Of a stretch of 63,750 nt of DNA, positions 4,421 through 7,114 are shown piece after piece (the first letter of the stretch is position 1; each line of letters opens with the position of its first letter). The position numbers were made by a program, and so were the translations under genes. The notes beneath the pieces are model-generated. The model worked only from the letters and a program-made list of their open reading frames with translations, was not told the DNA's origin and ran no database searches. Source of the stretch: Deferrivibrio essentukiensis (lineage in GTDB: Bacteria; Chrysiogenota; Deferribacteres; Deferribacterales; Deferrivibrionaceae); assembly GCF_020480685.1 (NCBI RefSeq), contig NZ_JAJAFU010000015.1, positions 1-63,750 of the forward strand. The letters run 5' to 3'.

Positions 4421-4586
4421 TTACCCTCACCAATAAAGTTGCAAATTAAAATTAATATTTTATCTTCATTTTTGCAACAGATTAATCAATTTGTCTTAAT
4501 TATATTGGTAGTTTAAGATATTCCAAAATAAATTTATTACCTGATAACTTATCAAATAACGTTAAATTTTATTGACATTAACAATT

Positions 4587-4774: not shown

Positions 4775-5236
4775 ATGTTAAACTATACTATGAGCAAACT
4801 TATACGTAATAAACAAATTTTTGAAAATTATTTAAAAGGGGATAAAATAAGCAAAATCTCAAAATATTTTGGTTTATCAGAGTCATATATCAAACAAATA
4901 TTGTCAAAAGAAAAGAAAAAAGAAGCCTTATTTAATAAAATGAAAAATGATGGGATTTTTTGGAGTTATGATAAAAATGTCCCCTACATCAAATTTAGTG
5001 ATGATATAATTATTGAACATACTTTAAAATATGGTGACTTTGAAGATATTGTAAAACTAACACGACTATACGGTATTAAAATTGTAAAAAATGTCTGGCG
5101 AGATAAAATGAAAAATGATGAGAGGTTTAAAAAAGTAAATGTGTTAATAGCCAGAGTCATCTTAAACATGAAAATTGATAATATTGAAAGTAAAAATTAT
5201 GAACGACTTGATAAAATTAAACAGTTTGCTTCCTGA
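4775..5236 (+). CDS. HTH antitoxin-like protein (DUF6922/AbiEi-like)
   Basis: A 153-residue basic protein. Residues ~10-45 (FENYLKGDKISKISKYFGLS followed by ESYIKQILSK) form a helix-turn-helix; the rest (WSYDKN..., HTLKYGDFEDIVKLTRLYG, VWRDKM) resembles the small DUF6922-type partner commonly encoded just before AbiEii-type nucleotidyltransferases. It would be the cognate antitoxin and autoregulator of the following gene, with which it overlaps by 38 bases. An in-frame ATG at 4790 is an alternative start; neither ATG has a clear Shine-Dalgarno sequence. Codon use is even more AT-rich than in flanking genes, in keeping with acquired DNA. The assignment to the antitoxin class rests on layout more than on residue identity. 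Confidence 0.7.
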   Translation: MLNYTMSKLIRNKQIFENYLKGDKISKISKYFGLSESYIKQILSKEKKKEALFNKMKNDGIFWSYDKNVPYIKFSDDIIIEHTLKYGDFEDIVKLTRLYGIKIVKNVWRDKMKNDERFKKVNVLIARVILNMKIDNIESKNYERLDKIKQFAS

Positions 5237-5846
5237 AACAAGGGAAGTATTATTAAAATTAATTAAGAATTGCGATTTTTTAAATAAATATGTCTTTGTT
5301 GGTGGAAGTGCTTTAGCTTTGCATTTAAATCACAGAAAAAGTGAAGACCTTGTTTTTTTTACATATGAAAATTATTTCAACAAAGCAGAATTAATTGATA
5401 TATCAAAATATTTTAAAAACTTTAGCATTTTAAATGAGACAGACAAACAAATTGACTTGTTTGCTGATGGAGTAAAAATCACTTTTTTTAATTCTTCATG
5501 GAGCTTTTTAAAACCTAAAAATATTTTGCAATTTAACTTGGCTACCATTGAACAATTGACTGCTATGAAAGTAAATACACTCTTTGTTAGAGCAACTTAT
5601 AGAGATTACTATGACCTGTATTTTATAACAAAGTACGCAAATATAGGTCTTAAAAAAATATTTGAATTAAGTAAAAATATTTTAAGCGGAATTACCATGA
5701 AGTTATTTTTTGCTGCATTACTTTATGTAGACGATATCATTGATGACACTATAGAACATTTATGCCCGAAAATAATAATCTCAAAAAAAGAAATCAGAGA
5801 TTATTTTCAAAATGAAATAAATAAACTTAAAAACGATATTTTATAG
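5199..5846 (+). CDS. AbiEii/AbiGii-type nucleotidyltransferase (altered active site)
   Basis: A 215-residue member of the AbiEii/AbiGii (DUF1814) toxin family, minimal nucleotidyltransferases that in characterised type IV toxin-antitoxin systems modify tRNA or abort phage infection. The N-terminal motif VFVGGSALALHLNHRKSED is present, and the conserved later motifs ATIEQLTAMKV and RATYRDYYDLYFI are intact. The expected second carboxylate of the D-x-D metal motif is replaced: codons 5347-5352 region read D-L-V-F-F (GAC CTT GTT) where family members have D-[LIF]-D. The ATG at 5199 is preferred over an upstream TTG at 5175. Partner of the preceding HTH gene. The protein may be catalytically weak or dead. 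Confidence 0.85.
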   Translation: MNDLIKLNSLLPETREVLLKLIKNCDFLNKYVFVGGSALALHLNHRKSEDLVFFTYENYFNKAELIDISKYFKNFSILNETDKQIDLFADGVKITFFNSSWSFLKPKNILQFNLATIEQLTAMKVNTLFVRATYRDYYDLYFITKYANIGLKKIFELSKNILSGITMKLFFAALLYVDDIIDDTIEHLCPKIIISKKEIRDYFQNEINKLKNDIL

Positions 5847-5959: not shown

Positions 5960-5986
5960 AAAAAAGCCGGCCTCGTTGAAGCCGGC
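5960..5986 (-). terminator. Rho-independent terminator of the small RNA
   Basis: Two GCCGGC arms flank a nine-base loop, followed on the minus strand by TTTTTT. It also lies about 150 bases beyond the stop of meaB and could catch transcripts from that operon. Confidence 0.8.
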
Positions 5987-6046
5987 AATCTCCATATATT
6001 TTAAGGAGGGGGGAGGAGGGTATTTGGTATTTCTATCAAATACCTT
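5960..6046 (-). ncRNA. probable stand-alone small RNA with anti-Shine-Dalgarno segment
   Basis: On the minus strand a promoter (see 6053-6080) is followed by an ~87-base unit without a useful reading frame. In transcript order it has a perfect 8-bp hairpin (GGTATTTG at 6044-6037 pairing with CAAATACC at 6026-6019, 10-base loop), a C-rich single-stranded run CCCTCCTCCCCCCTCCTT (6020-6003), a short AT-rich linker with ATGGAG, and a GC-rich terminator hairpin (two GCCGGC arms, 5986-5981 and 5971-5966) followed by six T. The C-rich run contains CCTCCTTA, identical to the 3' end of 16S rRNA, so it could base-pair with many ribosome binding sites. Structure is seen directly; a regulatory role is inferred. 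Confidence 0.65.
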
Positions 6047-6052
6047 ACTTAG

Positions 6053-6080
6053 AATATAAATGTACTATGATTTTTGTCAA
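6053..6080 (-). promoter_or_regulatory. sigma-70-type promoter of the small RNA
   Basis: The minus strand has a perfect -35 TTGACA (6080-6075), a 16-base spacer and TATATT (6058-6053). It sits after the meaB stop codon and points at the small RNA. The thioredoxin gene in this window has the same hexamers and spacing. Confidence 0.65.
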
Positions 6081-6133: not shown

Positions 6134-7114
6134 TTAATTAAAGATATTTTTCAAGTTATCAATTAAAATTTCCGCCACAGAAAACGGTGAAGATTTCTTT
6201 GAAATGATATTTTTTTGACATTCAGATATCAAGTTTTTCATATCTTTATTGTTATGAATTTTACTTTTTATATAATCGTCCACCATTGACCACATCCATG
6301 AGATATATTGAGAGTCCCTTCTTGTAACAAGCAAACCTGTTTTTTTCATTAAATCAAAATAATTCATTAAAGCATTAAAATAGTCTTCAAAACCAAAACC
6401 TTTTAATCCACTTGTCAAAATTACAGGTATATTCCATCCGTCTTCTCTGTGAGAAAACATCATTAAGGCATTTTCAATTTGAGATTTCGCAAGCTTTGCT
6501 TTTTCTAAATTGTCATCTTCAGCCTTATTGACAAGAATAACATCAGACAGCTCCATTACACCTCTTTTTATCCCCTGCAATTCATCGCCTGAGTTTGGTA
6601 GTAGAAGAAGTGTAAATATATCTACCATATCAGCAACAGCAACTTCAGACTGCCCTACCCCAACAGTCTCAACCAATATTGCATCATAACCTGCTGCTTC
6701 ACATGCAATCATAGCCTCTCTTGTCTTTCTGGCAACCCCCCCTAATGTATCACCCGATGGTGAAGGCCTGATAAATGCTTTATCACTCCTACTTAATTCT
6801 TCCATTCTCGTCTTATCACCAAGAATGCTGCCACCTGTCTTTTGTGAGGATGGGTCAACTGCCAAAACTGCAACTTTATACCCCTTACTTATAAGGTAAA
6901 GCCCAAAAGATTCAATAAAAGTGCTTTTACCAACACCCGGAGTCCCTGTAATCCCTATTCTGATAGAATTGCCTGAGTAGGGGACAAGTTTATCAAGAAG
7001 TTTGAGAGAGTCTTTAAAGTCCTCTTCCCTTTTACTTTCGATAAGTGTTATAGCTTTGGCAAGGTGCCGCCTGTTGCCAGACAGCACCCCTTCAAACATT
7101 TCATCTATGTTCAT
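6134..7114 (-). CDS. meaB: methylmalonyl-CoA mutase-associated GTPase MeaB
   Basis: A 326-residue G3E-family P-loop GTPase (MeaB/ArgK), the chaperone that gates adenosylcobalamin loading and protects or reactivates methylmalonyl-CoA mutase. Walker A is GTPGVGKST (residues 57-65); the family motifs [28 protein letters not shown] (switch region) and the base-recognition motif VNKAE are present. Length is as usual. The start overlaps the mutase stop by 14 bases, so the two are translationally coupled. Confidence 0.95.

Follow-up and report, generated by a model that had tools for sequence, protein, structure and literature searches.

The window analyzed here is a 63,750-nucleotide stretch of contig NZ_JAJAFU010000015.1 of Deferrivibrio essentukiensis. 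Between meaB (6134–7114) and a gene encoding an AbiEii-like protein (5175–5846, plus strand), it contains a compact set of transcription signals on the minus strand that delimit a putative small RNA (sRNA; Table 1). A sequence-only reading of this DNA had described the locus as an ~87-base minus-strand transcription unit, and the TTGACA-16-TATATT promoter, the terminator, the coordinates, and the length were all confirmed. The promoter, with an 11/12 match, ranks first among 25 promoter-like sites between positions 4500 and 7500. In the entire window, nine promoter matches of at least 11/12 and, by a simple rule, four G+C-rich terminators were identified; a promoter of this quality followed by a G+C-rich terminator within 150 nt occurs once, at the sRNA, compared to 0.0 per Markov shuffle (60 shuffles). 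The predicted fold is far more stable than that of shuffled sequence (z = -4.7). From the geometry of the promoter and the terminator, the locus is expected to be transcribed.

Table 1. Features of the sRNA locus, in window coordinates.
Feature	Position	Strand	Basis or occurrence
-35 hexamer TTGACA	6080-6075	minus	Read directly; TTGACA box 5' of the C-run in all 18 homologues
-10 hexamer TATATT, 16-nt spacer after the -35 hexamer	6058-6053	minus	Read directly
Putative transcription start	6046	minus	Promoter geometry
5' hairpin GGTATTTGATAGAAATACCAAATACC	6044-6019	minus	MFE fold; G000, G001, and G002 only (this genus)
Conserved core CCCTCCTCCCCCCTCCTTAAAATATAT (C-rich seed and A/U-rich linker)	6020-5994	minus	Identity between families, covariance model matches
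C-run CCCTCCTCCCCCCTCC, containing CCUCCUCCC	6020-6005	minus	Read directly
Linker TTAAAATATAT	6004-5994	minus	Read directly
GGAGATT, predicted weak pairing with CTCC 6008-6005	5993-5987	minus	f1-f3 only
Intrinsic terminator: 9-pair stem-loop 5986-5966 and T6 5965-5960	5986-5960	minus	Read directly
Putative sRNA transcript, ~87 nt	6046-5960	minus	Promoter and terminator geometry

Beyond the sRNA terminator, the plus strand (4775-5846) encodes a DUF6922-like/Mor-like protein and the AbiEii-like nucleotidyltransferase, together a possible type IV toxin-antitoxin pair. Both genes are present in one member of the genus (G001) and absent in another (G002), and therefore probably represent a recent insertion.

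A BLAST search of 60 relatives, with 131 nt of the locus as the query, detected the locus in the same genus, with E-values as low as 1e-61; in further families of the order, the part from the C-run to the terminator was matched with 85-100% identity. We built a covariance model from eight BLAST homologues, and a second model added more distant members; the homologues detected with these models include families left out of the first one. Between them, the covariance models and BLAST identified the sRNA in 18 of the phylum's 51 genomes, always as one clear copy and in six families of Deferribacterales, with per-genome E-values of 1e-9 to 1e-15 for the full-length homologues and a weaker value for a copy cut by a contig end. 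The carriers comprise all genomes of families f1 (3/3), f2 (4/4, including the cut copy), f3 (3/3), f5 (2/2), and f8 (2/2), and of two genera, g6 and g13, of f6 (4/4). Among the same 51 genomes, the covariance models did not detect the sRNA in the f6 genera g10 and g16 or in families f4, f7, f9, and f10. Nine genomes of f1, f2, and f8 each contain a single occurrence of the exact core pattern and no match to the reversed control pattern. Three weak covariance model matches (G001:239923, G018:C60, and G045:C133) turned out to be gene ends followed by terminators and were not counted as sRNA copies. The viral contigs and plasmids that were searched yielded no match.

Conservation is concentrated in the core. 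The sequence CCCUCCUCCCCCCUCCUUAAAAUAUAU is identical in three families, and the 27-nt core agrees at 27/27 positions among f1, f2, and f8. Two f3 genomes lack one C, and what is left of the core reads CCCTCCTCCCC(C)TCCTT in f5 and CCCTCCCCTCCTTAA in f6. Across the six families, core identity is 65-100%, with a pairwise mean of 0.85. By comparison, the promoter spacer averages 0.44 and the flanks 0.46 (upstream) and 0.48 (downstream), values close to those expected at random when short A+T-rich stretches are aligned with gaps. The -10 box is TATATT or a near variant in f1, f2, f3, f5, and f8 and is weaker in f6, and the lower stem of the terminator is kept in all 12 distinct aligned homologues, with two-sided changes at 2 of 5 pairs; the promoter and the terminator are thus conserved across families. 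The sequence-only reading had named a lack of conservation of the C-run in related genomes as grounds for refutation; the run is kept across families, and this test did not refute the claim. Two family-specific elaborations were also observed. In f2 (G003, G010, and G017; L130, L129, and L131), the -10 box lies inside a palindrome, GTTTAATATATTAAAC, which was not seen in the other families and could be an operator. In f6 (L144 and L171-L173), the terminator loop itself is C-rich (CUUCCCCAA and CCAACUCCCCAAAA) and could be a second seed.

The structural context of the core differs by family. In f1-f3, folding predicts that the 3' CUCC of the C-run pairs with a GGAG in the same RNA (in the window, 6008-6005 with 5993-5990, with an unpaired probability of about 0.1), and the predicted exposed part is CUCCUCCCCCC. 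The GGAG is missing in f5, f6, and f8. In f8, a perfect 12-bp hairpin presents the core in its loop, and in f6 genus g6 the core is closed off by AAGG/CCUU pairing; the f3 core is single-stranded, and in f5 the core occupies the very 5' terminus, given the putative start. In every full-length fold, the C-run is largely unpaired. None of the homologue folds outside this genus contains the 5' hairpin of the window. Accordingly, the arrangement of the C-run between a 5' hairpin and the terminator holds within the genus and is not a conserved architecture, because elsewhere the C-run is displayed at an extreme 5' end, in a single strand, or in a hairpin loop.

The genomic neighborhood varies as well. 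The sRNA is located near meaB in f1 and f2, in different arrangements, with the f2 copy behind ahcY (names read from sequences). A pilT operon is the neighbor in f3, f6, and f8; the two are mostly arranged divergently, but in one f3 genome the operon lies downstream on the same strand. In f5, the sRNA occupies yet another location. Given these changing neighbors (meaB, pilT, or other), the sRNA is neither the leader nor the 3' UTR of any one gene. The location of the sRNA away from meaB in four families bears out the claim that its promoter and terminator are independent of meaB, and a link to this gene was rejected on the same grounds. In G001, a transposase-like gene (L180:3536-4924, identified by eye) separates meaB from the sRNA. 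On neither strand is the core spanned by a long or shared ORF; a small-protein reading (ATGGAGATTGCCGGC...) was rejected because it is unconserved and runs into the terminator. Judging by its sequence and phyletic pattern, we consider the locus to be a real, independent sRNA gene.

The genome of D. essentukiensis encodes a canonical Hfq of 74 aa with an arginine patch, RRKR, at the position of the rim arginines of E. coli Hfq. In the phylum, 31 genomes are Hfq-positive, whereas the 20 genomes of f4 and f7 have no Hfq match. Each of the 18 sRNA carriers is among the Hfq-positive genomes, and the sRNA is missing from all 20 that are Hfq-negative. In 13 Hfq-positive genomes the sRNA is not recognizable; f6 g10, f6 g16, f9, and f10 have Hfq without a detectable sRNA. 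This co-occurrence is consistent with Hfq dependence, although it might come down to just one or two losses. Besides the canonical Hfq, contig C4 of the same genome (L113:1474-1980) encodes a 168-aa protein with two tandem Hfq domains, directly upstream of a response-regulator-like gene. A two-domain form also occurs in f9 and in the majority of the order's Hfq-positive families.

No Rfam family matched anywhere in the window at the gathering cutoff. At permissive thresholds, scores far below the cutoffs were obtained for alpha-r14 (RF02344; 10.9 bits against a cutoff of 58.8), anti-hemB, and a betaproteobacterial toxic sRNA. Like alpha-r14/NfeR1, CcsR1-4, and the "cuckoo" RNAs (RF02344), the sRNA described here contains the nonamer CCUCCUCCC in an unpaired region and, in f8, in a hairpin loop, as in those RNAs. 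The nonamer is part of CCCUCCUCCCCCC in f1, f2, f8, f5, and two of the three f3 genomes, where it is mostly unpaired in the folds, and is absent in f6 and G018. Unlike the RNAs of that group, which contain two to four motif hairpins, the sRNA has a single motif; it also has its own promoter, scores below the Rfam cutoff, and comes from a different phylum. The alpha-r14/cuckoo RNAs are linked to a DUF1127 gene (CIN1-like locus); no such gene was recognized among the scanned sRNA neighbors with ORFs of at least 80 aa (meaB, AbiEii-like, pilT, ahcY, and others, assigned by Pfam or by reading). In Sinorhizobium meliloti, the NfeR1 nonamer silences ntrB by pairing with the Shine-Dalgarno (SD) sequence at the start region (PMC10746234).

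The C-rich sRNAs of Firmicutes (IsrR, FsrA, and RoxS/RsaE) similarly read SDs with exposed C-rich seeds in A+T-rich genomes, and the C-rich regions of IsrR block SD sites in a genome that has few G-rich stretches other than its SDs (PMC9410917). With these RNAs, by contrast, the sRNA shares no recognized sequence homology (no Rfam match), and no iron or redox operator was recognized at the locus; Hfq dependency is not a trait common to IsrR and FsrA (PMC9410917). The likeness to C-rich regulators of Gram-positive bacteria that had been proposed is therefore upheld as an analogy. Enterobacterial Hfq-dependent sRNAs resemble the sRNA in length, in having their own promoter, and in the order of seed, A/U-rich linker, and U-tailed terminator, but here the seed is C-rich and nearly invariant across families, and Hfq binding is predicted from the anatomy. 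In Helicobacter, the C/U-rich terminator loop of RepG reads a variable G-repeat in one leader, and, to our knowledge, H. pylori has no Hfq. RepG is comparable as a short, independent sRNA aimed at G-rich mRNA leaders (PMC8295292). Overall, the sRNA appears to work like alpha-r14/CcsR and the Firmicute C-rich sRNAs while belonging to neither group, nor to any curated family. Neither Rfam nor the open-access papers searched yielded a description of such a trans-acting sRNA from the phylum Deferribacterota. The retention of the sRNA in six families provides a handle on post-transcriptional control in this phylum. It also opens two questions to testing: why unrelated phyla have come to possess C-rich anti-SD seeds, down to the same nonamer, and whether such seeds vanish along with Hfq.

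For the 56 predicted genes of the window, the mean energy of the duplex with the C-run is -8.7 kcal/mol for start regions and -6.1 kcal/mol for gene interiors. Shuffled start regions yield -7.2 kcal/mol, so that the real ones are only slightly better, and the 16S tail pairs with start regions at -8.4, about equal to the C-run. These models suggest that the C-run can read SD sites, and nothing in them says that all SD sites are read. We also searched for target patterns, AAGGAGGGG in six genomes and TTRRGGRGGGGG with one mismatch in five; for neither pattern were SD-positioned complements enriched over reversed-pattern controls. Among the hits read by eye, which are part of the total, start regions with long complements in the D. 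essentukiensis genome include those of flgI, nuoN, nuoK, ccoO, fliQ, and a sodium:solute symporter, candidates that would suit a role in respiration and motility. The cimA start region recurs in two species of one f8 genus, and no candidate among the pattern hits read, again part of all hits, recurs between genera. The symporter was dropped as a target: the hits in two genera are different paralogues, and strong SDs are also found in genomes without the sRNA.

We consider it likely that this gene encodes a trans-acting, probably Hfq-dependent sRNA of Deferribacterales with a C-rich seed that occludes the SD regions of a limited set of mRNAs. Its anatomy is typical of Hfq sRNAs. A sigma-70-type promoter of its own would drive transcription up to the intrinsic terminator, and the RNA would offer Hfq a binding platform made up of the terminator U-tail and the A/U-rich UUAAAAUAUAU linker. 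The unpaired C-rich stretch would serve as the seed, pairing with purine-rich SD regions, GGGAGGAG- or GGAGGGG-like, of the target mRNAs; 30S binding would thus be blocked and translation repressed, with mRNA decay to follow. The gene anatomy, its conservation in single copy, its independence of the neighbors, the exposure of the C-run in the folds, and the co-occurrence with Hfq are observed here, whereas transcription, Hfq binding, SD pairing, repression, and the identity of the targets are inferred. Repression of a limited regulon is favored because the NfeR1 nonamer silences ntrB and the C-rich regions of IsrR block SDs. The earlier proposal that the RNA sequesters ribosome binding sites is hence retained, by analogy, for a C-rich-seed regulator, and its extension to all SD sites is without support. 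In a broader and rather doubtful version, a single order-wide sRNA, with a near-fixed 27-nt core displayed differently in each family (bare 5' end, single strand, weak GGAG clasp, or 12-bp hairpin loop), would regulate SD-dependent translation in general and would have disappeared, along with Hfq, from two entire families.

Alternatively, the RNA could act as a protein sponge in which the C-run, or the GGAG loop of f1-f3, titrates Hfq itself, a CsrA-like protein, or a cold-shock protein, with pairing secondary. The retention of sequence rather than structure over 27 nt, beyond the needs of a short seed, and the GGAG next to the C-run in f1-f3 would fit this scenario, but we find it improbable, given that f5, f6, and f8 lack the GGAG, that a single site per RNA makes a poor sponge, and that C-rich seeds of such make-up act by pairing (PMC10746234, PMC9410917).

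Still less probable is a global anti-SD mimic that imitates the 16S tail and lowers most translation or occupies SD sites wholesale under stress. CCUCCUU is indeed common to the sRNA and 16S rRNA, and the C-run can pair with many start regions at energies similar to those of the 16S tail. The comparison rests on two relatives with readable 16S 3' ends (CCTCCTTTCT and CCTCCTTTTT), the end having been searched for and not found in the D. essentukiensis genome; in these, 7 letters, not 8, are shared with the sRNA, so that CCTCCTTA, which had been equated with the 16S 3' end, matches in part. The same letters had been taken to be exposed. Given the CUCC-GGAG pairing in f1-f3, however, CCUCCUU is predicted to be mostly paired and is the least exposed part, the open part being the stretch just upstream, and in most families the folds place the 16S-like letters in paired segments. 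A mimic of 16S is accordingly not supported. Neither is global competition with ribosomes, as previously suggested, because one gene copy per genome could hardly match ribosome numbers, the conserved core far exceeds the anti-SD letters and covers an A/U stretch that is lacking in 16S rRNA, and the average binding of the C-run is no better than that of the 16S tail.

It is highly improbable that the plus strand is the functional one, serving as a quadruplex-prone, G-rich element (GGAGGGGGGAGGAGGG) or as a leader equipped with a strong SD. The complement, AAGGAGGGGGGAGGAGGG, does amount to a perfect SD containing G runs, but the order of promoter, C-run, and terminator on the minus strand is retained in six families, and no shared ORF follows on the plus strand. 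C-rich runs and promoters are simple sequences, and a strong promoter and a terminator could by chance flank low-complexity C-rich DNA and drive purposeless transcription, a reading to which we assign next to no probability and which appears already refuted, as far as conservation can refute it, by the full-length homologues in six families and by the lack of a promoter-terminator pair in all 60 shuffles.
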